DNA from: Opitutia bacterium
GTDB lineage: Bacteria; Verrucomicrobiota; Verrucomicrobiia; Opitutales; Opitutaceae
NCBI GenBank assembly: GCA_947452315.1
Contig: CANGCX010000013.1
Span: 1-44,142 of the forward strand
Length of the DNA stretch: 44,142 nt
Reading direction: 5' to 3'
Of this stretch, positions 17,852 to 33,532 are shown piece by piece. How positions within the stretch are numbered: position 1 is the stretch's first letter; every line of letters starts with the position of its first letter. The position numbers and the translations under genes are program-made. The notes under the pieces are model-generated. The model did not search any database, was not told where the DNA came from, and was given only the letters and a program-made list of their open reading frames with translations.

Positions 17852-18853
17852 TCACTCGCGCTTGAGCTCGCGCGTCATTAGCGCGTTCAGCGCCGCAGCC
17901 GGTGCTTTGCCGCCAAACAAAATCGAGTGCATCTCGCGTAAGATCGGTGCATCAATACCGCGTTCGACGCACAAACCGTGAAACGATTCCGTGGTGCGGT
18001 AACCTTCGACTACGGTCTTGCGGTGGGCGATGAGCTCGGCGGCCTTCTGGCCTTCACCGATGCGCTGGCCAAATTCGCGGTTGCGGCTCCAGGCTCCGTG
18101 ACAGGTAGCCACAAGATCGCCAAAACCACTCAGGCCGTAAAACGTCTCCGGCCGAGCACCGAGCGCCGCACCGACGCGCACCATCTCGGCGAGCGCGCGA
18201 GTGAGCAGCGCCGCGTTGGCGTTGTCGCCGAGCCCAAGACCCGCCGCGCAACCCGCGGAGATGGCGTAAATATTTTTCAAGCAACCACCGTATTCGAGAC
18301 CTGCGAGATCGTCGCTCGTGTACACGCGCAAGGTCGGGCCGCTAATGGCGGTCTGAATTTCCGCGACCAACCCCTCGCTACCGCGCGCGGCGCCCAGCAC
18401 CATAACAGCGGGTAAACCACGCGCGACTTCTCCGGCGTTAGTGGGGCCGGTAATGGCTCCAACGGGCACCTCGGGCTGCACGGCGGCGATCACTTGCGTT
18501 GGGCGCAGGTGCGAACCGACTTCAAGACCCTTAGCTAGACTTACAATTAAGCGCAATGGAGTCGCTGCGCTACCTGCAGCGTGCACGCGGGCCGTCGTCT
18601 CGCGCAAGGCCTGCGACGGACACGCCAGTAACACCACGGTTGCCGGCGCCAACGCTAACGCGAGATCCGCGGTCACACTGAGGGCGGTCGGGAGTACGAC
18701 ACCCGGAAGATATTCTCGGTTCTCGCGTGCCGCGAGCAACGCCTCAGCTTGCTCCGCGCGTCGCGGCACCAGCGTCACCGAACGGCCCAGACGCGCCAAG
18801 TGCACTGCAAACGCAGTGCCCCAAGCTCCGGCTCCGACGATGCAAAATTTCAT
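17852..18853 (-). CDS. gpsA: NAD(P)-dependent glycerol-3-phosphate dehydrogenase
   Basis: The product has 333 residues and reduces dihydroxyacetone phosphate to sn-glycerol-3-phosphate for phospholipid synthesis. The N-terminal nucleotide motif is GAGAWG (7-12). The conserved SLAKGLE (K108), GPTNAGEVA (136-144, more often GPSFAKEVA), the catalytic Lys in CLKNIYAISAG (K193) and SGFGDLVATC (D246) with SRNREFG are all present. The Thr-Asn-Ala-Gly variant of the middle motif is unusual. It lies between lysA (upstream) and aat (downstream) on the same strand. Confidence 0.95.
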   Translation of the reverse strand: MKFCIVGAGAWGTAFAVHLARLGRSVTLVPRRAEQAEALLAARENREYLPGVVLPTALSVTADLALALAPATVVLLACPSQALRETTARVHAAGSAATPLRLIVSLAKGLEVGSHLRPTQVIAAVQPEVPVGAITGPTNAGEVARGLPAVMVLGAARGSEGLVAEIQTAISGPTLRVYTSDDLAGLEYGGCLKNIYAISAGCAAGLGLGDNANAALLTRALAEMVRVGAALGARPETFYGLSGFGDLVATCHGAWSRNREFGQRIGEGQKAAELIAHRKTVVEGYRTTESFHGLCVERGIDAPILREMHSILFGGKAPAAALNALMTRELKRE

Positions 18854-18873
18854 GGGCAGAGGTTAACCACGAA

Positions 18874-18941
18874 ACTCGCCAAAGACACAAAAAAGAAAAC
18901 GCCTAAACTGCGTGTTTCCAAAAATTGAGATTTTGGCGAGT
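18874..18941. repeat. 10-bp perfect inverted repeat between lysA and gpsA
   Basis: ACTCGCCAAA (18874-18883) and TTTGGCGAGT (18932-18941) are exact reverse complements 48 bp apart. The AT-rich spacer contains a second imperfect stem. In the transcript this would close a long stem-loop just upstream of the gpsA start. It could be a leader structure, a terminator without a U-tract, or a small repeat element. Confidence 0.45.
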
Positions 18942-18950
18942 GCTCGGGTA

Positions 18951-20255
18951 TCACTTGAGAAACGCTGGGATTTTTTCGTGGGCGATCATCGACTCAAAAG
19001 TCTCACGAGCAGTTACGAGCTCGAAAGCGCTGCCCTGGACCATGACTTCGGCCGGAAGAGCGCGGGTGTTGTAGCGGCTAGACATTGTGGAGCCATAAGC
19101 GCCAGCGCTCATCAGCGCGATGTATTCACCCTCGCCGACTTCTTGGAGTTGACGGTCTTTGGCGAAACAATCGCCGCTCTCACAGATCGGTCCGACGATG
19201 TCAGCCACGAGCGCACGGCGCGTCGTGTCGCGATGCAGCGGGACAATTTCGTGAAACGCTTCATACATCGCGGGACGTACAAGGTCGTTCATCGCGGCGT
19301 CAACAATGAGGAAATTTTTCCCAGAACCACGCTTTAGGTGCTCAACGCGAGTCAGCAGGACGCCGGCGTTGCCAACCATATAACGGCCGGGCTCAAGGAG
19401 GATTTTAAGACCGAGTGGTTGCAGTAGTGGCACAAGTGCCGCGCCGTAGGCCTCAGGAGTCAGCGGTCGCGTGGCCGCAGGCTGCGCGTCCCACCAAGCG
19501 GCATTGCCGCTGGCGAGCGCGTCTTTATAAACGATACCGATACCACCACCGATGGAGAAATACGTGATGCCATACTTCGCCTTCAACTCGGCGGCGAAAG
19601 GCGCGACCTTGGCGACGGCTTCAGCAAAGGGCCCGATTTCTGTTAGCTGCGAGCCGATATGCATTTGCACGCCGCGCAGTTGGATATGGGGATATTTTGA
19701 AGCCGCCTCGTAGGCGGCCGCGGCAAACTTGAGTGGGATGCCGAATTTATTGTCGCTCTTGCCCGTGGTGATTTTGGCGTGGGTGTGGGCATCGACGTCG
19801 GGGTTGATACGGATGGCGATGGGCGCCTTGACGCCAAGTTTGCCGGCTACGTGGTTGATCCGGGCGAGCTCGGGCTCGCTTTCGACGTGAAAGGAGAAAA
19901 TGCCGCTCTGCAGCGCAAGCTGGATTTCCGCCTCAGTCTTGCCGACGCCGGCGAAGACGCTGCGCTTCACATCAGCGCCAGCCGCGAGCACGCGCCGGAG
20001 TTCGCCACCGCTCACAAGATCAAACGCAGCACCGAGGCGAGCAAAGTGCCGAAGCACGGCAAGGCCGGAATTGGCCTTCATCGCGTAACAGAGCTGCACG
20101 TCGAGCCCAGTGAGGCTATTAGCCAAGCGGTTATAATTATCAGCCATCGTGGCAGCGCTGGTGACGTAAGTTGGGGTGCCGTAGAGACGGGCGACTTCGG
20201 CGAGATCGACGGACTCGCAGTGTAGATTTTGGCCGACGTAGTGGAAGTGGTGCAT
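18951..20255 (-). CDS. lysA: Diaminopimelate decarboxylase
   Basis: The product has 434 residues from the ATG at 20255; 17 more in-frame codons upstream (MVFSRRNSHR...) look non-coding. The enzyme is PLP-dependent and decarboxylates meso-diaminopimelate to L-lysine, the last step of lysine synthesis. The PLP lysine is K60 in CYAMKANS. The Ser/Gly region AAFDLVSGGELRR, the HIGSQ motif, SIGGGIGI and the C-terminal catalytic Cys in CESGDCF complete the family set. The end of the protein (AYGSTMSSRYNTRALPAEVMV) is also typical. It heads the lysA-gpsA-aat series. Confidence 0.95.
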   Translation of the reverse strand: MHHFHYVGQNLHCESVDLAEVARLYGTPTYVTSAATMADNYNRLANSLTGLDVQLCYAMKANSGLAVLRHFARLGAAFDLVSGGELRRVLAAGADVKRSVFAGVGKTEAEIQLALQSGIFSFHVESEPELARINHVAGKLGVKAPIAIRINPDVDAHTHAKITTGKSDNKFGIPLKFAAAAYEAASKYPHIQLRGVQMHIGSQLTEIGPFAEAVAKVAPFAAELKAKYGITYFSIGGGIGIVYKDALASGNAAWWDAQPAATRPLTPEAYGAALVPLLQPLGLKILLEPGRYMVGNAGVLLTRVEHLKRGSGKNFLIVDAAMNDLVRPAMYEAFHEIVPLHRDTTRRALVADIVGPICESGDCFAKDRQLQEVGEGEYIALMSAGAYGSTMSSRYNTRALPAEVMVQGSAFELVTARETFESMIAHEKIPAFLK

Positions 20256-20434
20256 AAAAAAGATGGAAAGATGGAAACGGTGCGAGTTTCGCCTTGAAAA
20301 AACCAATCCAAAATTACGTTTTCATTAGCGTGCTACGCTTCCTTCAAAAACTACTCCATCGACCGGCTATCCGTTTCGGATTGGCGCGGGATCGTCGGGG
20401 GAGCCGGTTGCGGGATCCGCGGTTTGTGAGTTTC

Positions 20435-20587
20435 ATGGCTCAGAACAACCGTAAGACGCTCGATACGGACCTCCAAGACGCCGTATTGCGTGGGCAAAAG
20501 CTTTTCAGGCACGCCCTTGTAGCGGCTGCGATCGCGGGGGTGGTATGGTTTGCACTGGAAAGTGCCCGGGCGCTTTCAATTTTCTGA
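20435..20587 (+). CDS. Small single-helix membrane protein (50 residues)
   Basis: The ATG at 20435 opens a 50-residue frame: a polar, charged N-terminus (NNRKTLDTDLQDAVLRGQK) followed by one transmembrane helix (about 27-47). An in-frame start at 20294 adds 47 residues of non-protein-like sequence and was rejected. It ends 44 bp before the lipoprotein gene at 20632, on the same strand. I do not recognise a family; a real gene is plausible because of the helix and the tight spacing. Confidence 0.5.
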   Translation: MAQNNRKTLDTDLQDAVLRGQKLFRHALVAAAIAGVVWFALESARALSIF

Positions 20588-20631
20588 GCGCGGCCTTGCC
20601 GTCGGCGGCCGGAACGCCTTGCGTGGTACGC

Positions 20632-21129
20632 ATGACGCCCCTTCGCCTATTTTCCCGTAGCCTCAGACTCACGCTCGCCCTTGCCTTTGTCGCGCTCGTC
20701 GCGGGTTGCGGCAATGGCTTCAAGCTCACCGGGGTCAACGTGAGCATCGTCGGTTTTAAACCCTCGACCACAAACAAACTGGAAACCACCGCAGTGATGA
20801 CCTTGCGCTACACGAGCGAGAACGTGATTCCGATCGGTCTATCGGGCTCAAACCATAAACTTTACCTAAACGGCGTCTACGCCGGCAAAACCCTGAGCGA
20901 AGAACAACCCTTGGGTTTGGCGCCACTGAGCGCGATCAATCAAGATGTGACGGTGAAATTTGAAAATCTCGCTCGCCTGCAACAGCTCGTGGCTGATGCG
21001 GGTCAAAACACCGCTGCTTATAAAATCGAGAGTGTGCTTCTTGTGACAAGCGGCGAAGAAAAATTGGACATCAAAACCACCGGAACCGGCAACGTGGATC
21101 TGCGCCCGCTCATAGCAGGCTCGCGTTGA
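20632..21129 (+). CDS. Lipoprotein with WHy / LEA-14-like domain
   Basis: The product has 165 residues from the ATG at 20632; the longer reading from 20545 adds an unlikely N-terminus. The signal peptide ends LVAGC with the lipid Cys at 26. The mature part (about 35-145) has the beta-sandwich pattern of LEA type 2 / WHy domains: VNVSIVGFKPSTTNKLETTAV, a strand pair around MTLRYTSENVIPIGLSGSN, and LYLNGVYAGK. Such bacterial proteins sit in the periplasm anchored to a membrane, and some help under desiccation or stress. The function here is not known. Confidence 0.75.
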   Translation: MTPLRLFSRSLRLTLALAFVALVAGCGNGFKLTGVNVSIVGFKPSTTNKLETTAVMTLRYTSENVIPIGLSGSNHKLYLNGVYAGKTLSEEQPLGLAPLSAINQDVTVKFENLARLQQLVADAGQNTAAYKIESVLLVTSGEEKLDIKTTGTGNVDLRPLIAGSR

Positions 21130-21150
21130 TTCTCGCGTAGAACACGCCAG

Positions 21151-22992
21151 TTAAGGCAACTCGTAGACCTCGACGATCGCAGCTCCGGTGCCGCCATCCG
21201 CGCCGGAAACCTGTACGGTATAACCACCTGGTGGCAGGCTCACGATTAAGGCCGCGTCTTTGGCATTAGCCACGAATCCGAAAGCGCCTACGGAATTAAA
21301 AATCGTGTTCAGCGAGGCGGCATACGAGTCATTTTCGGCGATCCTGCTCCCCGAGGCTGTGAACAGCTCAAGTTTGGGATCGGCAATCGTGCCCGGGACA
21401 CCAAGTGCACCCAAGCTGGGTCCCGCCGCGCGGATGAGTAAGTTTCTCGAACCCGAGCCCGCAACCGTGAAGCCGGCGATCAAAATATCTCCACCGGTAC
21501 CTACAAAATTAAGCGCAGAGAGATTAGTCAGACGGGTCGAATTACCCGAACCGGCATCATAAGCCTCGACGATAACGTTGCCGGCGGCAGGACCAGAAAC
21601 CTGAACGGTACGTCCTCCTTCAATATTAGCGACAAGGGCTGCATCGAGACTGCTCGCTGAGGGAAAGGCGAACGCGCCGACGGTAGATATAGCCGAAGAA
21701 ACCGCCGTATTGCCCTGCCAATTATCATTCAGCGCGACCTGTGCAGAACCGTTGTAAAGAGCGAGCTTGGGATCGGCCATGGTGCCAGGAACTCCGAGAG
21801 CGCCGAGGCCGGGACCTGCAGCACGAAGGAGTACGTCTTTTTTTCCACCCGACATCGTGAGTCCGACGATCAAAATCTGATTAGCAGAAAGCGTTGTGCG
21901 TACCGCTAGGTTACTCAAATAAGCGGAGTACGGTGAGGTAACCAACAGCGTGGCGGGTCCACCAATGGTCGTGCCAGCCGAATTGGAGATGACGACGTCG
22001 TAGCACGCGGTATCAGCGGCGGCGAGACTGGCAAAGCTGAGGGTCTCATTCGTAGCGCCGGTGATAGCTGTGCCGTTTTTGCGCCATTGATAAGTCGGCG
22101 AGCCGGTAGCAACCACGGTAAACATGGCAGCTGTACTCGCGGCGGCGGCGGTGATGCTGGTGGGTTGCGTCATGACGACGGGTGCAGTAACCCCGCCGGT
22201 AACAGTCAAAGTCACCGCGTTACTGGTGGCAGAACCTTGTGAGTTGGTGGCCACGAGGGTGTAAGTAGCGGCGTCAGCCGAAGTAGCGCCGGAGATTGTA
22301 AGAATCGTACTGGTCGCGCCGGCAATCGCCGTAGAGCCTTTGAACCATTGCAGCGTGGGGGTTGGTGAGCCAGAGACCGCGGCGATAAACTGAGCGGTAC
22401 CACCGACGGGCACCGTTTTCGCGGTTGGTTGCGTACTTATTGTTGGCGCGGAATTAGGCGCAGCAGCGATATTGATGACGTAGGTAAAAGTTGTGGAGGT
22501 GTTTTTAGCACCGGCACTTTCCCAGGCCGTAAGAGAAACTAAAAATTGTCCCGCGGTGGTGGGTGTACCATCGAGCTGTAAAGTAGATGCGTTGTTAATT
22601 AGACCGCTAGTGACTCCTGTGGTGGTGGAGCCATATGCTTTAAGGGAGAGGCCGGGGGGTACGCCACCATTGACAGTCCAGGAGCTCGCCGCGGATTGGG
22701 CACCTTTCACGGAGAACACCACCGTATTGAAAACTGCTCCCACCGTCCCGCTAGCTGGACTTGGGGTCGAGGCGCTCAAGGTGGTCGCACCTGCCATACT
22801 GTGAACCGCACCGAGTGCGCCGAGCGTGGTGGCGGCCGCTTTTAGGACATTGCCGGCGGTGGAACTGAGGACGAAATTCCCTGCGCTCGCAGCGACGCGG
22901 ATAATCGGTGTCCGCTGAAGCAGCGCGATTAGCAATGCCCCCGGGAGATTCAGCCAATGCAGACGACGATGGATGGCAGCGGAAAATGACAT
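21151..22992 (-). CDS. Secreted Ig-domain protein with two C-terminal Verrucomicrobia-type export repeats
   Basis: The product has 613 residues. The N-terminus has a weak signal or membrane region (about 15-65). A putative-Ig (He_PIG-like) domain at ~72-176 contains SWTVNGGVPPGLSL. Two Ig I-set-like domains follow at ~182-266 (TLQWFKGSTAIAGAT) and ~270-352 (TYQWRKNGTAITGAT). Two copies of a ~125-residue repeat close the protein (355-480 and 486-612), each with LIxGxTxxGxxxxxLLRAAGPxLGALGVPGTxADPKLxL and ending in VQVSG...VEAYD/VEVYE. The same repeat forms the N-terminus of the DUF1800 protein (33533-36820). It is probably cell-surface or extracellular. It is last in the one-strand block, 73 bp after the DUF4266 gene. 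Confidence 0.82.
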   Translation of the reverse strand: MSFSAAIHRRLHWLNLPGALLIALLQRTPIIRVAASAGNFVLSSTAGNVLKAAATTLGALGAVHSMAGATTLSASTPSPASGTVGAVFNTVVFSVKGAQSAASSWTVNGGVPPGLSLKAYGSTTTGVTSGLINNASTLQLDGTPTTAGQFLVSLTAWESAGAKNTSTTFTYVINIAAAPNSAPTISTQPTAKTVPVGGTAQFIAAVSGSPTPTLQWFKGSTAIAGATSTILTISGATSADAATYTLVATNSQGSATSNAVTLTVTGGVTAPVVMTQPTSITAAAASTAAMFTVVATGSPTYQWRKNGTAITGATNETLSFASLAAADTACYDVVISNSAGTTIGGPATLLVTSPYSAYLSNLAVRTTLSANQILIVGLTMSGGKKDVLLRAAGPGLGALGVPGTMADPKLALYNGSAQVALNDNWQGNTAVSSAISTVGAFAFPSASSLDAALVANIEGGRTVQVSGPAAGNVIVEAYDAGSGNSTRLTNLSALNFVGTGGDILIAGFTVAGSGSRNLLIRAAGPSLGALGVPGTIADPKLELFTASGSRIAENDSYAASLNTIFNSVGAFGFVANAKDAALIVSLPPGGYTVQVSGADGGTGAAIVEVYELP

Positions 22993-23065
22993 GGTCAGGA
23001 GAAGGCCGAGACAGCAGCGAGATTAGAAAGTTGCTATAAAGATACGGCGACGCGAAACCGCGCGC

Positions 23066-23296
23066 TCAGTTGCAGCCGCAACCGCTGCCACCCACGCCGC
23101 GGCCACCGGCGGCGGATTCACGTGAGAAATAAACGTGTTCGGCCAAAGCGAGCGCAAGGGGATCGCGGTCGGGCCGCATTGTATAATCGGCGAGCGTAGC
23201 GCGCTCCCATGGTTGGACTAATGCGGTGGTCGTGGCGCAGCCAGAGACGAGCGCGGTAGCGGAGAGCAGCAAGGCGAGGAGGAGGCGAGAGCGCAT
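23066..23296 (-). CDS. DUF4266 lipoprotein with a Cys-x-Cys tail
   Basis: The product has 76 residues from ATG 23296. The signal peptide ends VSGC with the lipid Cys at 20. The mature part has the DUF4266 pattern: VQPWERATLADYTM, RDPLALALAEHVYFSRE and a Gly-rich end, GVGGSGCGCN, with C73 and C75. The family is short, and its role is unknown. The C-terminal CxC could bind metal or take part in thiol exchange. It is the fourth gene in the row DUF3570-ApbE-TlpA-DUF4266, a grouping I have seen for these families elsewhere. It starts 28 bp after the thioredoxin stop. Confidence 0.85.
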   Translation of the reverse strand: MRSRLLLALLLSATALVSGCATTTALVQPWERATLADYTMRPDRDPLALALAEHVYFSRESAAGGRGVGGSGCGCN

Positions 23297-23324
23297 GAGA
23301 TTACTTGGAAAAATGTGACGTGAT

Positions 23325-23819
23325 TTAGGATTTCTCGGCGAGCAGGACGTCGAGTTCGGCGCGAAGATGTTGGTCCGTAGTAGTACCGTGGTAACCAGCG
23401 TGGAGGTACCGGACTTTACCGTCGCGGCCAATCACATAAGTCGTGGGCATCGCGGGAACGACGACAGCTCGGACAAGTTGTTGGGTGACGTCATGGAGCG
23501 CGAGAAACGGCGGGGCTTGTTTCTTCACGAACGCGGCGTAGGCGGAAGCTTTTTCATCGACGCTGACGCCGACAAGCACGACGCCGCGTGGGGCGTAGTC
23601 CGTGTTGATTTTGCCGAGCGCGGGAAACGATGCTTTGCATGGCGCACACCACGAGGCCCAAAAATCAACAACGAGAATTTTACCCTCGGTCGCGGGCACA
23701 GTGCCGCCGGCAAGTCCGGCGGAGGCGAGCGCGGGGAATAAGTCACCGACTTTGATTTCGGCGCGCGAGACGGTGGCCGTAAGAGTAAGTACGAGGGTGA
23801 AGAAAAAAACGGAGCGCAT
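23325..23819 (-). CDS. TlpA/ResA-like periplasmic thioredoxin
   Basis: The product has 164 residues. The signal peptide (1-20) ends SRA. The thioredoxin fold follows, with active site WCAPC (57-61) in VVDFWASWCAPCKASFPAL, then GVVLVGVSVDEKASAY and the cis-Pro loop VPAMPTTYVIGRDGKVRY. TlpA-like proteins reduce disulfides of periplasmic partners such as cytochrome c or cuproprotein maturation factors. It starts 10 bp after the ApbE stop and precedes the CxC lipoprotein DUF4266, which is a plausible substrate. Confidence 0.93.
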   Translation of the reverse strand: MRSVFFFTLVLTLTATVSRAEIKVGDLFPALASAGLAGGTVPATEGKILVVDFWASWCAPCKASFPALGKINTDYAPRGVVLVGVSVDEKASAYAAFVKKQAPPFLALHDVTQQLVRAVVVPAMPTTYVIGRDGKVRYLHAGYHGTTTDQHLRAELDVLLAEKS

Positions 23820-23829
23820 GGGAGATTTT

Positions 23830-24819
23830 TTAGGTTGCGAGGTAGTTCCAGAAACCGCGGGTTTGGGCGCGAGTGGAATCGGTGAGGAGTTGGCCTTCGG
23901 CGCCGGGTTGAGCTTGAATGAGCTCGAGTCCGGCTTTCACGCCCAGTACGAACGCGGCGGTGCTTAGGACGCCGGCTTGTAGACAGGTCGGCGCAATAAT
24001 GGTGGCTTGGCGGCAGCCATTGGCGACGGGGCGGCCCGTGCGCGGGTCGACGATGTGTCCGTAGCGAACGCCGTCGATGACGATGCGGCGCAAGTAATCA
24101 CCAGAGGAAGCAACACCTTGACCACGCGTAAGCGCAAGGGAGCCTTTGAGGGCGCCGGGCTCGGCGGGGTCTTCGAGACCAATGTGCCAAGCGGGGCGAG
24201 CGGGCGGGAATCCGACGGCGCGTAGGTCGTGGCCAAAATCGACGAGCGCGGCGGTGATGCCGTGGTCACGCGCGATCTGGGCGACGATGTCGACGGCCCA
24301 TTCCTTACCGAAGCCACCGAAATCGAGGGCCATGCCGGGTTCGGGGAGAAATACGTGGCCGGGGGTGCGTTGAACTTTTTTCCAACCGACGAGGCGTTGG
24401 GCGGCGGCGATCTCGGCGTCGGTGGGGAGACGCGGTGACGGGGCTTTGTAATCCCAGAGGCGCAGCAGCGGCAGCGCAGTAGGATCGAGCACGCCTTGCG
24501 TCATGAAATAGAGACGGTCACAGAGCGCGAGGAGGCCTTCCATCTCGGCGTCGATGGCGACGGGCGCGCGGCCGGCGGCAGCGTTGATGCGCGAAATGAG
24601 GCTGTCTGGGCGGAAGCGGGAATATTTCGCTTCGAAGGCGGCCACCCAGGCAACGGCGGCGGTTTCAAAGGCCTGAGATTGGGCGGAGGAAGTCGCGGTG
24701 TACTGAACTTCACAACGGGTGCCCAGGGCGGACCAGGTGAGCACGCGTAGCGGGATATCCGAGGTCGCCGTGGCGGCGAAGGGCGGCGGGGCGCGGTGAC
24801 TGGGAAGAACAAGTGCCAC
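23830..24819 (-). CDS. apbE: FAD:protein FMN transferase (ApbE)
   Basis: The product has 329 residues. ApbE enzymes use FAD to attach FMN by a phosphoester bond to Thr or Ser in a D-x-x-[ST]-G-A-[ST] motif of exported proteins. Family motifs here are GALGT-like SALGTRCEV near the N-terminus, the Ser/Arg region YSRFRPDSLISRIN, DFGGFGKEWAVD (the usual GGxxKGxxxD), SSGDYLR and YGHIVDPRTGRP. The N-terminal ~25 residues are not a clear signal peptide or lipobox, so localisation is uncertain. It directly follows the DUF3570 gene (26 bp gap), whose product carries a matching acceptor motif. Confidence 0.93.
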   Translation of the reverse strand: MALVLPSHRAPPPFAATATSDIPLRVLTWSALGTRCEVQYTATSSAQSQAFETAAVAWVAAFEAKYSRFRPDSLISRINAAAGRAPVAIDAEMEGLLALCDRLYFMTQGVLDPTALPLLRLWDYKAPSPRLPTDAEIAAAQRLVGWKKVQRTPGHVFLPEPGMALDFGGFGKEWAVDIVAQIARDHGITAALVDFGHDLRAVGFPPARPAWHIGLEDPAEPGALKGSLALTRGQGVASSGDYLRRIVIDGVRYGHIVDPRTGRPVANGCRQATIIAPTCLQAGVLSTAAFVLGVKAGLELIQAQPGAEGQLLTDSTRAQTRGFWNYLAT

Positions 24820-24845
24820 GGGCGAAGGTGTGAGACTATTTTAGC

Positions 24846-25994
24846 CTACCAAGCGAAACGGGCGCCGAGGGTGAGAATGGTCGCGCGGACGTAGGCGCTG
24901 GCGGGAGTAACGCCGTCGCGGCCGCGCATGTCGTAGCGCTCGAGGGCGGCGTCAAATTGCAGCGCTTCGGTGGCATTGAAGATGAGTTTCAGGCCGGTGT
25001 TGTAAGACCGCAAAGAGGAGAGCCGGTAATCGGAAGAGTAGAACGGGCCGGCGGGATTGGGGCGGCGGCCGGGAAGAATCGGCGTGCGGTCGAGGTTGTA
25101 GTAATAAAAATCTGCGGCGCTTTGTTGGTAGAAACGGAAGCCGGGACGGAGGATAAATTTTTCGCCGATGCGCTGGAACCAAGCGGTCTCTACGGTATGG
25201 GCGCCAGTACCAAAGGTGTCGCGGTAGTAGCGGTAGCTGGTTTCAAGCGCGCCGCGCATTGAAGGGAGGGCGCGGCTGAGGGACGCGAGTGCGATCCACT
25301 TGTCGCGCTCACCGGGACGATTTTCTCCGAATGTCTGGCTGAGGAAAATACCGGGCAACAGCTCAACGTTTTTTTCGACGAGCTTGTAAGGGTCGCTAAT
25401 ATATCCAGTTGTGCGGCCCCAGGTGGCATTAACCGTGACGGAAGTGCGCGGGTCGATGAGCTGGGTGACGCCGACGATGACATCGTTGGAGCGTTTTTTG
25501 ACGCGATTGGGTTGAAAGAAGACCTTTACGTCGTCGTCGGTACCAGCAACGCCAGTGAGGAGCGTGGTATTTTTTTGATTGAAATCGGTGAGAGCGTTGA
25601 GGGACCAACCATTCGAGACATAGTCGCTCTCACGCGAGTTACCGAAGCCGAGAGAGAGATTGACGCGAGCAAATTGACGGGAGAAATCGGCGTTCCAGGC
25701 TTTGCGGCGATCGTGCAGATCCGTGAGACGGACTTGGTCACTCCCTTTAGGTGCGGGTTCGCCGGTGGGCGTAGCACCGGTGATAGCGTCGAGGGTACCG
25801 GTGATACGGGCATGGTAATCGGTGCCGATGTCGTGTTCGATGAGCGCGGTCTGCGTCTCGACAGCGACACGGCCGCCGGATTCGCGGTAGTCGGACCATT
25901 TATAGGCGACGGAATTCTCGGCGCGGGCGCCACGAGGGGCAAGGACGGCGAGAGCAGCGGCGAGAAGCAGGGCGGGAGACGAACGCGGAGTCAT
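24846..25994 (-). CDS. DUF3570 outer-membrane beta-barrel-like protein carrying an FMN-acceptor motif
   Basis: The product has 382 residues from the ATG at 25994 (an ATG at 26036 adds 14 residues). The signal peptide MTPRSSPALLLAAALAVLAP ends RGARA. The mature part is rich in alternating strands and Tyr/Arg, and it ends in a Phe-Ala-Trp (GARFAW), like an outer-membrane barrel with a terminal aromatic residue. Residues 69-75 are D-A-I-T-G-A-T, followed by PTG. This fits the ApbE flavinylation consensus, with T75 as acceptor. The motif lies near the N-terminus, before the bulk of the barrel. The gene is first of the DUF3570-ApbE-TlpA-DUF4266 row. The DUF3570 family has no established function. 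Confidence 0.85.
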   Translation of the reverse strand: MTPRSSPALLLAAALAVLAPRGARAENSVAYKWSDYRESGGRVAVETQTALIEHDIGTDYHARITGTLDAITGATPTGEPAPKGSDQVRLTDLHDRRKAWNADFSRQFARVNLSLGFGNSRESDYVSNGWSLNALTDFNQKNTTLLTGVAGTDDDVKVFFQPNRVKKRSNDVIVGVTQLIDPRTSVTVNATWGRTTGYISDPYKLVEKNVELLPGIFLSQTFGENRPGERDKWIALASLSRALPSMRGALETSYRYYRDTFGTGAHTVETAWFQRIGEKFILRPGFRFYQQSAADFYYYNLDRTPILPGRRPNPAGPFYSSDYRLSSLRSYNTGLKLIFNATEALQFDAALERYDMRGRDGVTPASAYVRATILTLGARFAW

Positions 25995-26080
25995 CGGATG
26001 ATGAAAAAAGAGTAATCGAATCGAGTTCTTAAACAAGCCGAACGACGAATCCTAACCCACGACCAGCCAAAAGCCGCTAC

Positions 26081-26611
26081 TTATTTGGCAACCTCGACGG
26101 AGGAGACCCGGAGCACCGCTGTGAGCGGCGTACCCGAGGGCGGGGCGTTGAGGGTGAATTGCTCGATACTAATATAGGGTGAGCGGGCCTGGAGGTTGAG
26201 GTAGAATTTTTTCAACGCCTCCCAGTCAACCTTGGTAATGGTGACTTGGAGCGAGTGCACGGAGAATTGCTCGCCTGTGACGTCGCGTTGTTCGCCGAGG
26301 CCTGGGGTGACGCCGGCGGAGCGCGCGAGTTTATCGATCTCGGCGTAGAGGCGCGTGGCATCGAGCGTCTGGGCGGCGTCAAGGCGGGCGGCGGCTTTCT
26401 GGGCGGAGGCGTCGATGGCTGAGCGGTTGGCGAGCCATTGCTTCTGCTCGGCGAGGGAGATGCTGGTGGAGCGTTGCTCACGCCAGAAGGTGCCGACGCG
26501 GGTGCTGAAACCGGAAAACCACATCACGACGCCGAGGACGGCAAACGCGACGAGCAGAAGTTTCTCGCGGAAAAGTCGGGCGAGGAAGAGAGCGCGGAGG
26601 GTGCGGATCAT
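26081..26611 (-). CDS. gspM: Type II secretion protein M-like
   Basis: The product has 176 residues: a short cytoplasmic N-terminus, one transmembrane helix (about 17-35), a coiled-coil-like stretch (about 45-95, with AEQKQWLANRSAI) and a small C-terminal alpha/beta domain (about 100-175, with VHSLQVTITKVDWEALKKFY). This is the GspM/PilO layout. GspM binds GspL in the inner-membrane platform. The start overlaps the gspL stop by 4 bp. Sequence identity to named GspM proteins is low, so the name rests on layout and position at the end of the gspG-M series. Confidence 0.78.
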   Translation of the reverse strand: MIRTLRALFLARLFREKLLLVAFAVLGVVMWFSGFSTRVGTFWREQRSTSISLAEQKQWLANRSAIDASAQKAAARLDAAQTLDATRLYAEIDKLARSAGVTPGLGEQRDVTGEQFSVHSLQVTITKVDWEALKKFYLNLQARSPYISIEQFTLNAPPSGTPLTAVLRVSSVEVAK

Positions 26612-27780
26612 GGCGCGGCGGTGACGGCGGGTTTGACAGCGCCGGCTTTGAAGGTGGTCGTGAGGGTGAAGGTGGTGGTGGGCGAACCCGGGGCGTTGCG
26701 CTGGCCGCTGATCTCGGCGTGGGAGACTTCAGGGAGCGCTTCGAGGGCGGTTTTAAACAGCGTGATCTCGCCACTATTATCAGTGCGGGCGTCGATAGTG
26801 ACGCGTTCTAGGTCTTTGGCATCGGTGACGACGCGTGAGAAACGAATCGTGCCGGGGATTTTGGCGGCAACGACAGAGATCATCTCCATAGGCAGAAGGC
26901 GTTTAGTGGAGAGGTCTTCGATGCGCGTAGCGAGAGCCTGCGCGTTCATGATTTTCTCGACGGTGGGACGCTGGGCGGAGAGCTGGGTGAGGCGCACTTT
27001 CTGCCAGGTGGCGCGAGCGGCGCCGAGGGAAATTTCGCCGAGGCCCATGAACAAAAGCGCCAGAACGCAGCCGACCGCGACGCGCCAGAACATGACGTCG
27101 CGGGCGAGGCCACGACGGCGGGCCAACAGAGCGGCTTTATCGCGGACGTCGAGATCGGCGGCGATCACGGCGGACAAGCGAGAGGTGATTTCGCCGGCGG
27201 CAAAACTGAAGTCGCCATCGCCAGCGGCGGACTGAGCGACAGGAAGCGTGGCGAGATCGAGGACGTGGGTGCTGCCGCCGACACTACGAAGAAGCTCGGC
27301 CTTGGCGGCAGCTAATGCGGCTTCGTTGGCAGGAACCTCGTCGGTGGCTGGGGCGAGCGGCGTGGTAAAAATCTGCACGGGGCCATCGGCGGCAGCGTGG
27401 AGCGCCGTGAGGCTATCGGAGTGTGTAAGAATTAACGTGGTGCCGGCAGCGAGCGGGGCGCCGAGCAGGGCTGCAAAGGTCGGAAGGACTAGATCGGCTT
27501 CGTTCCATAGGTCAGTTTGTTCGGCCGTGACGCGGCGGCGGTAGGCGGCGAAGACGAGGGCGGCGCTGGCACCGGGAGGGTAATAGTAACCGTAGTAAAG
27601 CTGCGCGACGGGGAACGGCGCGAGGGACTCAAGAGCGAGTTCAACCTGCGAGGCGACGTCCTGGGCGGGCGTCTCAGAGGCGATCGGGATGGCGCGGGTG
27701 AAAAAAAGCGCATCGGGCAAGAGGCAAACCTTGGGTGGCGGGGGGCCTGCGCGGAGAAAATGGAGGGGCGAATCGCTCAT
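26608..27780 (-). CDS. gspL: Type II secretion protein L-like
   Basis: The product has 390 residues. The cytoplasmic N-terminal ~220 residues look like a degenerate actin-like (GspL/PilM-type) domain, followed by a transmembrane helix (about 230-250) and a periplasmic PilN-like domain with coiled coil and ferredoxin-like fold (about 260-380). It contains PMEMISVVAAKIPGTIRFSRV, typical of PilN/GspL. GspL links the GspE ATPase to the inner-membrane platform. It overlaps gspM and lies 88 bp after gspK. That gap is A-rich on the plus strand and holds no gene. Confidence 0.8.
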   Translation of the reverse strand: MSDSPLHFLRAGPPPPKVCLLPDALFFTRAIPIASETPAQDVASQVELALESLAPFPVAQLYYGYYYPPGASAALVFAAYRRRVTAEQTDLWNEADLVLPTFAALLGAPLAAGTTLILTHSDSLTALHAAADGPVQIFTTPLAPATDEVPANEAALAAAKAELLRSVGGSTHVLDLATLPVAQSAAGDGDFSFAAGEITSRLSAVIAADLDVRDKAALLARRRGLARDVMFWRVAVGCVLALLFMGLGEISLGAARATWQKVRLTQLSAQRPTVEKIMNAQALATRIEDLSTKRLLPMEMISVVAAKIPGTIRFSRVVTDAKDLERVTIDARTDNSGEITLFKTALEALPEVSHAEISGQRNAPGSPTTTFTLTTTFKAGAVKPAVTAAP

Positions 27781-27868
27781 CGGAAAAAAGGTTGGCGGAA
27801 AGAGAAAAAAGGAGAATGGCCGAGAAAGGGAGAACGTTTAAGAGAAAAAACGAAAAGGATGGCTAAGA

Positions 27869-29020
27869 CTAGGATGCGGGCGGAGGGGGTGGAGGGGGAG
27901 GTAGAGGCTCGTTTTCGACGAGCTGAAGGATTGTAAAGGGGTAGTTTAGACGAGTGCTCGCCGCAGCGGCGGTGGTGGCGGAGGAGGGGGTGGTCGTGGG
28001 TCGGGAGGTGGTGGAGACGCTGGCGGCACTGGCCGCTTGTTCATCAGACGTGTTAGCGCGGGTATTGGTTGCGGTCGTCAGGACGGTTGTTGCGCCGCCA
28101 CTTTGAGGCGAAACAATGGCATCGAGGCGGTATTGGGCGCGGCCTTCTTGCACGACGAGGCGAATACGAAGGGCGCTGATGGTGGTGCCGAAGGTGTTGG
28201 CGCGGCCGGCGGAACCAAGAAACTTGCGGGCGTCATTGGTGGCAGTAAACCAGCCGGGGCCATTGTAGGCGGATTGGCCAGTGCCGGCGAGATAGTCGGA
28301 GAGTTTAGTTTTCTGCGTCTCGTCGAATTCGCCGAGAGCAGTAAGGACGTCGGATTTGGCGCCGTTTAGATTGGTGCGCTGGAAATTGAGAAGGGAAACG
28401 TTGTCAACGAAGCGGCGGTAGAGGTCGTTGGGGCGACCAGTTTCGTCGAAGAAAATCGTGCGAGCAAAGTCGATGGCGGCGAGTTCGCTGTAGGAGCGCA
28501 GCGAACGCAGGGGGGCGACGTAGGGCAAGGCGGCGTGCTCGTAGTCCGGGGATTGAGCGGTGGTATAGGTGTGGTTGCGCTTCATCCAGCCGAGCATGAT
28601 GTCGGTGAGTTTCTCGGTATCGTAGTTGGTGAGACCGAAGGCGAGAAAGAGATTTTGAAGCTGATTAGCGCCGGCCTGCGGCAGAGAGAGTTTACCGCTT
28701 TCGTCTTCAAAGGTGACCGTAACGGTGCGACCCTCGGTCGGGATATAGCCGGCAAATCCAAGAGGGTCGGACCATCCCTCGGCGGGAGTGTGGAGGCCGT
28801 TGGTGACGAGCCTAAATTCTTCAAGCACGGAAAGCGTGGTCTCGAGGGCAGAATAGGCCTCCTGACGGAGACGACGGGTGTCGGCTTCGCGGGCTTCAAC
28901 GATGAGGTCATTGGATGCTTTTTCGAGGAAAACGGTGAGCGCGAGAGCCGTAAAAATGAGCGTGACCATGACGATCACGAGAACACTAGCGCGGACAGAA
29001 GAAAGAGAGCGTGCCTTCAT
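27869..29020 (-). CDS. gspK: Type II secretion minor pseudopilin K with a poly-proline tail
   Basis: The product has 383 residues. The N-terminus RASVLVIVMVTLIFTALALT is the hydrophobic pilin-like helix; as in other GspK there is no Glu at position 5. The large globular domain (about 60-310) follows GspK, with FEDESGKLSLPQAGANQLQ near the start and helix-hairpin-helix-like DYLAGTG. GspK caps the pseudopilus tip with GspI and GspJ. The C-terminal ~75 residues are unusual: a Thr/Ser/Ala-rich linker and eight consecutive prolines before the final Ala-Ser. It starts 6 bp after the gspJ stop. Confidence 0.9.
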   Translation of the reverse strand: MKARSLSSVRASVLVIVMVTLIFTALALTVFLEKASNDLIVEAREADTRRLRQEAYSALETTLSVLEEFRLVTNGLHTPAEGWSDPLGFAGYIPTEGRTVTVTFEDESGKLSLPQAGANQLQNLFLAFGLTNYDTEKLTDIMLGWMKRNHTYTTAQSPDYEHAALPYVAPLRSLRSYSELAAIDFARTIFFDETGRPNDLYRRFVDNVSLLNFQRTNLNGAKSDVLTALGEFDETQKTKLSDYLAGTGQSAYNGPGWFTATNDARKFLGSAGRANTFGTTISALRIRLVVQEGRAQYRLDAIVSPQSGGATTVLTTATNTRANTSDEQAASAASVSTTSRPTTTPSSATTAAAASTRLNYPFTILQLVENEPLPPPPPPPPAS

Positions 29021-29026
29021 CCTCGA

Positions 29027-29713
29027 TTAAAAATTGGGCACCCCTTGGGGTGTGTTGCCAAGATTGACGACGGTCTCGCGACTGAAAGCACCGTAGGCGA
29101 ATTTCAAGCGGAGGCGCTGCGGGGCGGTGTATTTGCCGGAGTTGTCTTTCTTGATGGCGGTCTCGGTAGTCCAGCGCACCAAGGCGGTGTCGTAATAATC
29201 GTATGCGATAGCCGTGACGAACGGGGTAAGGATCGTCTCACGTGGTGGATCCGCTTCGAAGCGGGGTTCAAGGCGCGAATGCCAGAGTAGGATCAGACCT
29301 TCGTTTTGTCGGGCCTGAAGGGAGCAAACGACTTCGGGGAGCGCGGGGCCGGGCCAGCTGATGAGGCGGGTGCCGGCAGGGAGTTCAAAGGTGAGCAGCG
29401 TATCGGTGACACCTCCGCTAGGGCGGATTTCTTGGGGCGCGACCGGACTGGCGTTGGCGCGGGCGGATGGTGGGAGGGTGGCTGCACGGAGTTCGCGATC
29501 GAGTGCGCGCGTGACAGCGCGGACGTGTTGCTCGAAGAGGCGGATGTCGGTATTTTTGCCCCACAGTTCTCCCATGGAAAACACAAAGGTGTTGAGCGCC
29601 ACGAGCATCAAAGCGACGAGCGCAAGCGAGAGGAGAATCTCAAGGAGCGTGAAACCGGCAGCGGCGCGCGAAGAGCGAGCGGAAGAGGAAAAGATGTGGC
29701 GACCCAGGCTCAT
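29027..29713 (-). CDS. gspJ: Type II secretion minor pseudopilin J
   Basis: The product has 228 residues. The type IV prepilin motif AAAG-FTLLEILLSLALVAL has cleavage after G20, mature Phe 21 and Glu at position 5 (E25). The C-terminal globular part is beta-rich, with TLLTFELPAGTRLISWPG and the later SLQARQNEGLILLWHSRLEP. GspJ forms the pseudopilus tip with GspI and GspK. Its ATG overlaps the gspI stop (ATGA), so translation is coupled. Confidence 0.92.
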   Translation of the reverse strand: MSLGRHIFSSSARSSRAAAGFTLLEILLSLALVALMLVALNTFVFSMGELWGKNTDIRLFEQHVRAVTRALDRELRAATLPPSARANASPVAPQEIRPSGGVTDTLLTFELPAGTRLISWPGPALPEVVCSLQARQNEGLILLWHSRLEPRFEADPPRETILTPFVTAIAYDYYDTALVRWTTETAIKKDNSGKYTAPQRLRLKFAYGAFSRETVVNLGNTPQGVPNF

Positions 29714-30204
29714 TTTTTCTTAGTGCCCTGAAGCTCTGCGATGCGATCGCGCACCGATTGGCGGAGTTGGGTTTTCTCGGCGGCATCGGACCATGTAGGA
29801 CGCAACACCGTAAATGTCTGGATGGTTTTTTGTGCCTCGCCGCCTTTTGTCATGTCGGTGACTTCGCACAAAAAAGTGACTGTAAAAAGATCGGGCATTG
29901 CTGTGCTGGAGAGTGTGGCACTCCAACGGACGTGACGGTTTTCGAGCGAATCAAATTCCGCGCCGGCTTCGACTTTGGCTCGGTCGGGTTGGGCCAGCAA
30001 TTGGGCACGAGCGAAGGTGACGTCCTCGTCGCGAGTGTTACCGCGAGCGACGGCTTCGTAACTGTTAAGGATATTAACGTACGTGGAGCCAAGAACGATG
30101 GCCGAAAGTGCGAAGATCATCAACGCCACGAGGACTTCGAGTAGACTGAAACCGGAGGCGCAGCGCGGGGCGCGCGCGGAAAGAGGAAGCGCGGGCGAGA
30201 TCAC
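29710..30204 (-). CDS. gspI: Type II secretion minor pseudopilin I
   Basis: The product has 164 residues from a GTG at 30204, chosen because it overlaps the gspH stop as GTGA. An ATG at 30240 would give 176 residues and a 40-bp overlap. The prepilin motif CASG-FSLLEVLVALMIFAL has G18 as the cleavage site and Glu at position 5 (E23). The globular part is longer than in classic GspI (~120 residues). It follows gspH and is coupled to gspJ. Confidence 0.9.
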   Translation of the reverse strand: MISPALPLSARAPRCASGFSLLEVLVALMIFALSAIVLGSTYVNILNSYEAVARGNTRDEDVTFARAQLLAQPDRAKVEAGAEFDSLENRHVRWSATLSSTAMPDLFTVTFLCEVTDMTKGGEAQKTIQTFTVLRPTWSDAAEKTQLRQSVRDRIAELQGTKKK

Positions 30205-30785
30205 GGCGTGGATTTGGGTGGCGTGAGCACAGGCGAACACGTCCAGGGATCGATGGAGATAATGTGCGCGCCACTGTTGACACGAATCTGAAGGCGGAAG
30301 GGCGAGCAGGTGCCGTCAGCATAAAAGGTGACGCCGCCACTCAGAGGCTCAGTTTCGACGACGGTGCCACCGAGGAGGATGGAGCCACCTGTTTTTTGGG
30401 CAGCGAGAAATTCGACTATGAGATCGTTGCCGGTGCCCACAACGGGGATAGGAAACGATTGGATGTTTCCGTCGGGCGGCGTGAGCTGGAAGGCTTTGGT
30501 TTTCTCGTCGTAGCGGAGGTTGAGGTCTTGTTCGGCGTTCAGAGCAGTCTTGCGCGCGGTGCGGACGGTGCTCCAAAAAACGTCGTCGGCCGAAGGGGGT
30601 TTCTCAGCAAGCAGGGCGGAAGAACCCCCGATGAGAGCTCCCGCGAGCAACGCGATGAGCGCGAGGGTGAGCAGCATCTCGAGCAAAGTAAAACCACGCA
30701 GAGAGACACAATGAATAGCAGGAGCAAAGTGCCCCACCCGCGCGGCCCGGCCGCCTGCCGCCGGTTGCTGGCCGCGCTCGATCAT
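30201..30785 (-). CDS. gspH: Type II secretion minor pseudopilin H
   Basis: The product has 194 residues. The prepilin signal is SLRG-FTLLEMLLTLALIAL, with cleavage after G31 and E36 as Glu 5. The leader of 31 residues is longer than usual; the true start may be an internal codon. The globular domain is GspH-like, with LNLRYDEKTKAFQLTPPDG and a final strand near FYADGTCSPFRLQIR. GspH couples the pseudopilus tip to the GspG fibre. It starts 3 bp after the gspG stop. Confidence 0.9.
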   Translation of the reverse strand: MIERGQQPAAGGRAARVGHFAPAIHCVSLRGFTLLEMLLTLALIALLAGALIGGSSALLAEKPPSADDVFWSTVRTARKTALNAEQDLNLRYDEKTKAFQLTPPDGNIQSFPIPVVGTGNDLIVEFLAAQKTGGSILLGGTVVETEPLSGGVTFYADGTCSPFRLQIRVNSGAHIISIDPWTCSPVLTPPKSTP

Positions 30786-30788
30786 GTA

Positions 30789-31277
30789 TTATTTTCCGGC
30801 CGTGGCTGCCGCGCTTGAATCCCAGTTGCCGATGTCGTCTTCGGTACCGTCGGCTTTGTCGGGGCCTTTTGAGTAAAGGTCATAGCTGCCTTTATTTTTC
30901 GTGCCGGGATAACGGTATTGATAAGGTTCGCCCCAAGGATCGAGAGGGACTTTGCCGCCTTCAATATATGGGCCACGCCAACGGTCAGCTTTGCTGGCGG
31001 GTGCGGTGACAAGGGCGAGAATGCCTTCGGCGCTCGAGGGATAATCGCCGAGGTGAATGCGATAGGTGGTGAGCGAGGTTTTCATGCTCTCCTTGACGAA
31101 GAGCGAGGCGGTGGTGACTTGCGCGCCGCCAAAGATTTTATCGACGTTGCTGATGGCGAGGCCAGCCAAGAGCCCGATGATGGCGAGTACGACAAGGATT
31201 TCGAGGAGCGTGAAAGCACGGCGGGTGCGAACGGAAAAGCGCGAACGCGAGAAGGATGCAGGTTGGGTGGCGAACAT
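30789..31277 (-). CDS. gspG: Major pseudopilin G of type II secretion
   Basis: The product has 162 residues. The prepilin motif RRA-FTLLEILVVLAIIGL has Ala instead of Gly before the cleavage site, and E26 is Glu 5. The C-terminal calcium loop is clear: GSYDLYSKGPDKADGTEDD with GNWD following (D140, D143, D147/D148). DPWGEPYQYRYPG is the standard GspG turn. This is the fibre subunit of the pseudopilus and the first of the gspG-H-I-J-K-L-M series. The 154 bp upstream hold a 6-bp stem (ATCAGC/GCTGAT, 31369-31390) and probably the promoter. Confidence 0.95.
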   Translation of the reverse strand: MFATQPASFSRSRFSVRTRRAFTLLEILVVLAIIGLLAGLAISNVDKIFGGAQVTTASLFVKESMKTSLTTYRIHLGDYPSSAEGILALVTAPASKADRWRGPYIEGGKVPLDPWGEPYQYRYPGTKNKGSYDLYSKGPDKADGTEDDIGNWDSSAAATAGK

Positions 31278-31431
31278 GATGAAAATTAAATTTGGGGATG
31301 ATGGGGTAATTGTCGAGACGCTGGCGGCGGCTAGAGGTTGCAGGAAAAATAGCGAAGAAACTCAATCAATCAGCCGTAAATACCGCTGATTGCCCGGATT
31401 GAAATAAAACCGACGACTGGCCTATTATTAT

Positions 31432-31998
31432 TTACAAGGGCGGGTCGATGCCAGGAGGTGTGAGGCGGACGTCGTCAGCCGTGCCAAATTTTTTATCAGG
31501 GCCAGCGGAGCGGATTTCCATGCGGTCGCTGGCGAGAGCGTGAAAAAGGAAGGGGGTGCCCCAACGGTCAGTGAGTTCGCCGGCGGCGTTGATCGCGGGA
31601 TGGTCGCGCGGCATGAGAGGTAAGCGGTAGGGATTCTCTCCAAGAAGGGCGGCGGTGATCTCAGAGTTTTCGCCAAAAGGGTGACCGAGATGAGGGAAAT
31701 TGATACGCCAATTAGTGAACAAATCGTTGATGAAATTGAGGTCGCGCGTGATGTCGGAGCGCGGCGAGTTCAATTCCGTGGCAAGTGAAGCGGGAGCTTC
31801 GTACGGGGCGGAGAGGGATCGTGCGACGGCCGGCGGATTTTTTTCACGGCGGGTATCAACGGCTTCCGGAGTGGGAGCAGAAATAGCAGCGATACGTGAG
31901 GAGTCGGGCTCGAGAGCGCGAGGCAAAAGCCACCAAACCAGAAGGCCCGACAACAAGAGCAAGAAGCCGAGGGCCGGCAGCAGACGACGCGAGGTCAT
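31432..31998 (-). CDS. Membrane-anchored GspG-C-terminus-like protein without a pilin motif
   Basis: The product has 188 residues. One N-terminal transmembrane helix (about 7-25, PALGFLLLLSGLLVWWLLP) is followed by a Pro/Ala linker. The C-terminal domain (about 100-185) matches the GspG carboxy part: TDRWGTPFLFHALAS, then MEIRSAGPDKKFGTADDV, in the place of the calcium loop. It has no GFTLxE cleavage motif, so it would not be processed by prepilin peptidase or join a fibre the usual way. It lies between the DUF1501 gene (52 bp upstream) and gspG (154 bp downstream). The function is unknown; it could be a pseudopilin-like adapter for the neighbouring exported proteins. Confidence 0.75.
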   Translation of the reverse strand: MTSRRLLPALGFLLLLSGLLVWWLLPRALEPDSSRIAAISAPTPEAVDTRREKNPPAVARSLSAPYEAPASLATELNSPRSDITRDLNFINDLFTNWRINFPHLGHPFGENSEITAALLGENPYRLPLMPRDHPAINAAGELTDRWGTPFLFHALASDRMEIRSAGPDKKFGTADDVRLTPPGIDPPL

Positions 31999-32049
31999 GC
32001 GGAACGCGGGCGCGCGCGCACGGAGCAGCGCACGCGCGAGGTAACAGAC

Positions 32050-33525: not shown

Positions 33526-33532
33526 GGGCAGA

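Follow-up and report, generated by a model that had tools for sequence, protein, structure and literature searches.

Can a β-barrel of the outer membrane carry a covalently bound flavin, and, if so, by which enzyme and in which compartment would the cofactor be attached? The question is raised by a four-gene cluster in a 44,142-nucleotide stretch of an Opitutia bacterium of the Opitutaceae (contig CANGCX010000013.1 of assembly GCA_947452315.1, positions 1 to 44,142), which was analyzed as a whole and is called the window here. The cluster runs on one strand from a DUF3570 gene through apbE and a thioredoxin gene to a DUF4266 gene (Table 1). At a probability of roughly two in three, we favor the reading that the DUF3570 protein is an exported 16-strand barrel bearing flavin mononucleotide (FMN) on threonine 75 (T75), attached by the neighboring ApbE, and that it takes part in a trans-envelope electron route. 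Flavinylation of a DUF3570 protein by ApbE was published in 2021, when the Chlorobium luteolum protein was shown to be flavinylated in E. coli alongside its cognate enzyme (Méheust et al., eLife 2021, PMC8238504), so the main idea of the initial annotation of this DNA is not new. The new elements are the barrel prediction with the placement of T75, the co-occurrence counts, the lack of a recognizable signal peptide in the ApbE, and a change at its metal site. The main text of the 2021 study does not use the word "barrel", and its sole passage on the outer membrane concerns siderophore transporters; among the open-licence matches listed, none described, by its title or the start of its abstract, a barrel that is flavinylated or an exported protein whose ApbE is cytosolic. 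The annotation's interpretation as a whole is partly supported. It read the motif correctly, and the motif's meaning was already known; it missed the relaxed form of the motif, the absence of a signal peptide and of the metal-site Asp from the ApbE, and the thioredoxin and the lipoprotein-like partner with its CxC end. The structural and enzymatic variant is worth testing.

NqrC and RnfG are FMN_bind domain proteins. The DUF3570 protein of the window, a predicted membrane barrel, differs from them in having no FMN_bind (PF04205) match; PF12094 is its sole Pfam match at E <= 0.1 (215 bits against a curated cut-off of 25), and an NCBIfam search returned no name for it. What it has in common with them is the acceptor motif D-x-x-[ST]-G-A-[ST], whose last residue is the modified one (PMC12052999), and which reads DAITGAT on the reverse strand of the window, as had been annotated. 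The pattern D..[ST]GA[ST] arises in 79 of 20,000 shuffles (0.4%) of the mature protein sequence, and among the window's 150 stop-to-stop frames of at least 100 amino acids, it is found in the DUF3570 frame alone. We aligned 54 DUF3570 rows longer than 300 amino acids, out of 58 matches; a further set held 137 frames longer than 250 amino acids, with duplicates between samples included. A contig scan, of which the best 80 of 528 loci were kept, relied on two patterns, one being the flavin motif itself; because selection by motif biases its loci, they were excluded from the main conservation count. In the 43 frames of the phylum sample, which were not selected by motif, conservation of the motif among DUF3570 relatives, which the annotation had proposed as a check, held for the loose form [DN]..[STAV]G[AS][ST] (36 of 43 at the motif columns) and much less often for the strict one (11 of 43), because the fourth place is often Ala or Val, the first Asn, or the sixth Ser. 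The acceptor position itself remains Ser or Thr among relatives.

Seven frames lack even the loose form. Five of them come from a distant group; of the other two, L100 is doubtful as a member of the family, and L080 (genome G121) is a frame broken by a stop and a frame change, in which the aligned piece is not the true motif site. The distant group reads D-x-V-S-S-A-S at the site and has a second SGAS or TGAS 10-12 residues further on. This two-serine pattern appears to resemble the C. luteolum protein as published, which carries serines at two [S/T]GA[S/T] sites, both of which had to be changed to stop flavinylation (PMC8238504). The window protein shares with the C. luteolum system the Pfam family, the flavinylation motif, and clusters with ApbE, a thioredoxin-like protein, and DUF4266, but it has one threonine site in place of the two modified serine sites. 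It belongs to a group with a single, mostly threonine, acceptor site: the window protein has one [ST]GA[ST], and of the 130 frames of the group, counted with duplicates between samples, 7 have an extra [STA]GA[ST] without a following Pro. Separately, nine loci (L057, L058, L059, L075, L083, L085, L086, L092, and L093) carry a Pro/Ser-rich acidic insertion of about 100 residues right after the flavin motif.

DUF3570 was found in 42 of the 387 genomes of the phylum sample and DUF4266 likewise in 42, with 41 genomes common to both families. Within the genus, 12 of 13 genomes, among them that of the window, have DUF3570. In the combined genus and phylum set, again with the window included, 51 of 55 DUF3570 frames have an ApbE nearby on the same strand. 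At the locus itself, apbE is indeed the next gene in the same direction, as had been noted, and its product matches PF02424 at 247 bits (cut-off 25.6). The C-terminal CxC of DUF4266 is present in 122 of 123 frames, or 106 of 107 unique ones. The NCBIfam matches of the thioredoxin all fall under the cut-off. The closest named relatives in the contig scan (best 80 of 528) are metagenome-assembled genomes of Opitutae and Opitutaceae, and outside the phylum, DUF3570 was found in four plasmid records only, three from Vibrio and one from Hymenobacter, of which two were retrieved for comparison (H1 and H4). Some of the published clusters that combine DUF3570 with ApbE, DUF4266, and a thioredoxin-like protein include dsbD, and 316 do not (PMC8238504). 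The window cluster shares the thioredoxin-like protein and the DUF4266 protein with terminal CxC with the DsbD-type clusters, which carry dsbD, and, like the 316, has no dsbD adjacent.

The barrel that had been suspected as host of the motif is borne out by the predicted structure. The AlphaFold2 model (predicted local distance difference test [pLDDT] 88.2, predicted template modeling score [pTM] 0.82) is a 16-strand outer-membrane barrel, by our own count of the strands with a loop hairpin left out. It combines a signal-peptide-like start, an even strand number, short periplasmic turns, and a C-terminal aromatic residue, and its Foldseek and VIA matches are outer-membrane barrels, including siderophore receptors, although these matches are generic. 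By sequence, no solved relative was found at E <= 1, and the outer-membrane barrels PelB, BcsC, and OmpG are 5-9% identical to the window protein. To our knowledge, none of these three has a flavin motif. In the model, T75 lies at the extracellular end of strand 3 (residues 60-76) and probably points into the lumen, where the most conserved residues of the family also appear to be concentrated.

In the mechanism that we favor, the neighboring ApbE would attach FMN to the unfolded precursor in the cytosol, where flavin adenine dinucleotide (FAD) is at hand, and the protein would then be exported and take its place in the outer membrane as a barrel of 16 strands. One FMN would be linked to T75 by a phosphoester bond, and conserved charged residues of the lumen could hold the flavin. 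Cytosolic attachment is the likeliest order because the cluster ApbE has no recognizable signal peptide. A simple, home-made, and crude detector, with identical sequences counted once and domains starting past profile position 25 dropped (except for thioredoxins), passes one of 97 unique cluster-type ApbEs, and that one scores within the ApbE domain. The partners mostly pass the same test (100 of 101 DUF4266 proteins, 92 of 104 thioredoxins, and 81 of 104 DUF3570 proteins, a set in which the filter leaves no member of the distant group). For the window ApbE, the detector finds neither a signal peptide nor a lipobox, and by inspection the Vibrio ApbE has no signal peptide either. As a side observation, many Opitutaceae cluster ApbEs begin with a Pro-rich peptide (SHRAPPP-like, at 24780-24819 in the window), which a loose pattern finds in 40 of 114.

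The chief rival to cytosolic attachment is flavinylation in the periplasm before folding, either by the cluster ApbE, arriving by a route invisible in its sequence, or by another ApbE of the genome. Substrates known from outside the cytosol receive their flavin from exported ApbEs, while the Klebsiella pneumoniae ApbE, which has no signal peptide, serves a cytosolic protein (PMC12052999). The window ApbE is like the Klebsiella enzyme in lacking a signal peptide, but the latter acts on a soluble fumarate reductase inside the cell, and the substrate of the former is exported. The genome of the window encodes three further ApbEs, two of which (L112 and L113) look exported; four of four ApbEs of the distant group pass the signal-peptide test, and the Hymenobacter ApbE, which stands beside an SSAS-type DUF3570, has a signal peptide by inspection. 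Against this stands the near-uniform absence of a signal peptide from the cluster-type ApbEs (96 of 97) next to neighbors that mostly have one. We regard periplasmic attachment as unlikely, if still the most serious competitor.

As for the electrons, they would probably pass from a DsbD-type protein to the thioredoxin, from there to DUF4266 with its Gly-rich CxC tail, and on to the barrel flavin, which they would leave for an acceptor located in the outer membrane or past it. Both the sequence of carriers and the direction are guessed from the gene set. Instead of a general conduit, the barrel might be a porin-like uptake protein for iron or small molecules whose flavin reduces ferric iron at the cell surface. 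The iron transporter VIT1 occurs in 25 DUF3570 clusters (PMC8238504), and siderophore receptors are among the fold matches. These matches are generic, however, and no iron transporter was recognized in 18000-34000 of the window, where frames of at least 100 amino acids were inspected and eight proteins were Pfam-scanned. A role in iron or small-molecule uptake seems improbable to us, somewhat more so than attachment in the periplasm.

The cluster ApbE differs from characterized enzymes at its metal site. In an alignment with the solved ApbEs 6nxi and 3pnd, the window enzyme retains Ser239, His255, and Thr287 and has Gly283 in place of Asp285 of Vibrio cholerae, so that the Ser-His-Asp triad (V. 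cholerae 241, 257, and 285) is incomplete. Asp285 is one of three conserved active-site residues of ApbE (PMC12052999), and in the E. coli enzyme, Asp280, together with Thr166 and Glu169 of the facing loop, binds the metal (PMC4767422); the matching of E. coli residues to those of the window is our own. The facing loop of the window ApbE reads Lys-Glu for the usual Lys-Gly. The two changes, Asp to Gly and Gly to Glu, occur together in 98 of 98 sequences, namely 95 cluster ApbEs, the Vibrio enzyme, and two others (L198 and L199). Neither is seen in 93 other ApbE rows, which include 70 (read out of 86) from genomes that lack DUF3570; across the 93, the Asp column holds 84 Asp, 2 gaps, and 7 other residues, drawn from E, S, T, H, and Q and in no case Gly. 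One Hymenobacter row, a fragment in another frame, was kept unchanged. A tree of 94 rows (29 of the 95 cluster ApbEs, 40 of the 70 from DUF3570-less genomes, and 25 of the 26 remaining rows) places all 32 included double-change rows on one branch with support 98/96, the Vibrio enzyme and L198 forming long branches. The double change probably reflects one old event retained since, not 98 independent cases, and it counts as about one event because these rows share a branch. Both L198 and L199 lie in genome G283, away from its DUF3570 operon, and L199 looks like a relocated cluster enzyme. In three further cases (G021:C1:1981935-1982750, G298:C8:304-1125, and G102:C5:152977-153795), ApbE domains lie within open frames of 859-1570 residues and may be fusions.

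Such an enzyme might no longer be a flavin transferase at all, in which case the motif would be a structural strand end and the system would run without covalent FMN. The universal loss of the Asp285 equivalent in the type and the relaxation of the motif at several positions in relatives would fit this. All 95 cluster ApbEs nevertheless retain the active-site Ser and His, and 94 of them also have the metal-ligand Thr, while a Glu appears in the facing loop of the same 98 sequences that lost the Asp. In addition, the acceptor stays Ser or Thr, and the type is absent among the 70 ApbEs from genomes without DUF3570. We consider an inactive ApbE doubtful, more so than an iron-uptake role. That a motif this short arose by chance in an ordinary porin is hardly credible, given its rarity in shuffles, its conserved place, the experimental flavinylation of the family (PMC8238504), and the ApbE that stands nearby on the same strand in nearly all loci.

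Several points nevertheless weigh against a T75-flavinylated barrel made by the cluster ApbE. Beyond the few strict motifs and the missing Asp, flavinylation has not been published for the one-site threonine group nor, as far as checked, for an Asp-to-Gly ApbE, and the C. luteolum protein, on which the experiments were done (PMC8238504), seems to resemble the distant group in having two serine sites. Which residues face the lumen and which the lipid was deduced from the alternation of hydrophobicity and not from coordinates; this alternation is weak in some strands and almost missing in 43-56 and 90-107. By our estimate, a flavin at the outer mouth would sit some 25 Å from the periplasm and would require another carrier. 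Cytosolic ApbEs are not rare by the signal-peptide test because just 40 of 80 other phylum ApbEs pass it (10 of 19, plus 30 of the 61 testable among the 70 from DUF3570-less genomes). DsbD was tried and rejected as a marker of the system, its presence being uninformative because it is found in 374 of 387 genomes. The window's genome (84% complete) has its sole DsbD_TM match on contig C76, not in the cluster, and a genome with DUF3570 that is rated 100% complete (G160) has no DsbD match.

Beyond the favored reading, we tentatively offer a more specific proposal, which we hold at somewhat less than even odds: a separate ApbE branch of Verrucomicrobiota and Vibrio, cytosolic, tied to one-site DUF3570 barrels, and with a metal site rebuilt by the two changes, may flavinylate an outer-membrane protein before its export. 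The bound flavin would pass the Sec and β-barrel assembly machinery (BAM) systems and sit in the outward-facing mouth of the barrel, fed from the periplasm by the flexible CxC tail. If true, this would place a covalent redox cofactor in an outer-membrane barrel without heme, and an enzyme whose active site is altered would have attached it ahead of export. Such a system would be a heme-free counterpart of porin-cytochrome conduits. It would also pose the problem of how a chain that already carries flavin gets through the machineries for export and barrel insertion.

Table 1. Features of the DUF3570 cluster in the window
Feature	Position	Strand	Basis
DUF3570 gene, 382 aa, ATG at 25994, C-terminal ...GARFAW	24846..25994	-	PF12094
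Signal-peptide-like N-terminus of the DUF3570 protein, residues 1-25	25920..25994	-	Sequence; extent by inspection
FMN-acceptor motif DAITGAT, DUF3570 residues 69-75	25770..25790	-	Sequence, conservation
T75 codon, predicted FMN-bearing residue at the modeled extracellular end of strand 60-76	25770..25772	-	Model and last-residue rule
apbE, GTG start, 329 aa, without signal-peptide-like segment	23830..24819	-	PF02424, 247 bits
ApbE Glu173, KE replacing the usual KG	24301..24303	-	Alignment
ApbE Gly283, replacing the conserved metal-site/catalytic Asp (Asp285 in V. cholerae)	23971..23973	-	Alignment
TlpA/ResA-like thioredoxin, signal-peptide-like N-terminus, WCAPC	23325..23819	-	PF08534, 71.5 bits
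DUF4266 small lipoprotein-like protein, lipobox-like start, ending GCGCN (CxC)	23066..23296	-	PF14086, 79.7 bits

In the surroundings of the cluster, no RNA element in 22900-27900 reached the gathering score. Directly upstream of the DUF3570 gene, on the reverse strand at 26081-31277, lies a type II secretion-like run of genes, named by inspection as pseudopilins, GspK/L/M-like, and GspJ-M-like. These genes were considered as part of the system and left out because the neighborhood is common to only part of the Opitutaceae; the T2SSM_b Pfam match is under the cut-off. A GspM-like match is present at 6 of the 12 loci of the genus, at 4 of the 43 from the phylum sample, and at 27 of the 80 kept from the contig scan (best 80 of 528).
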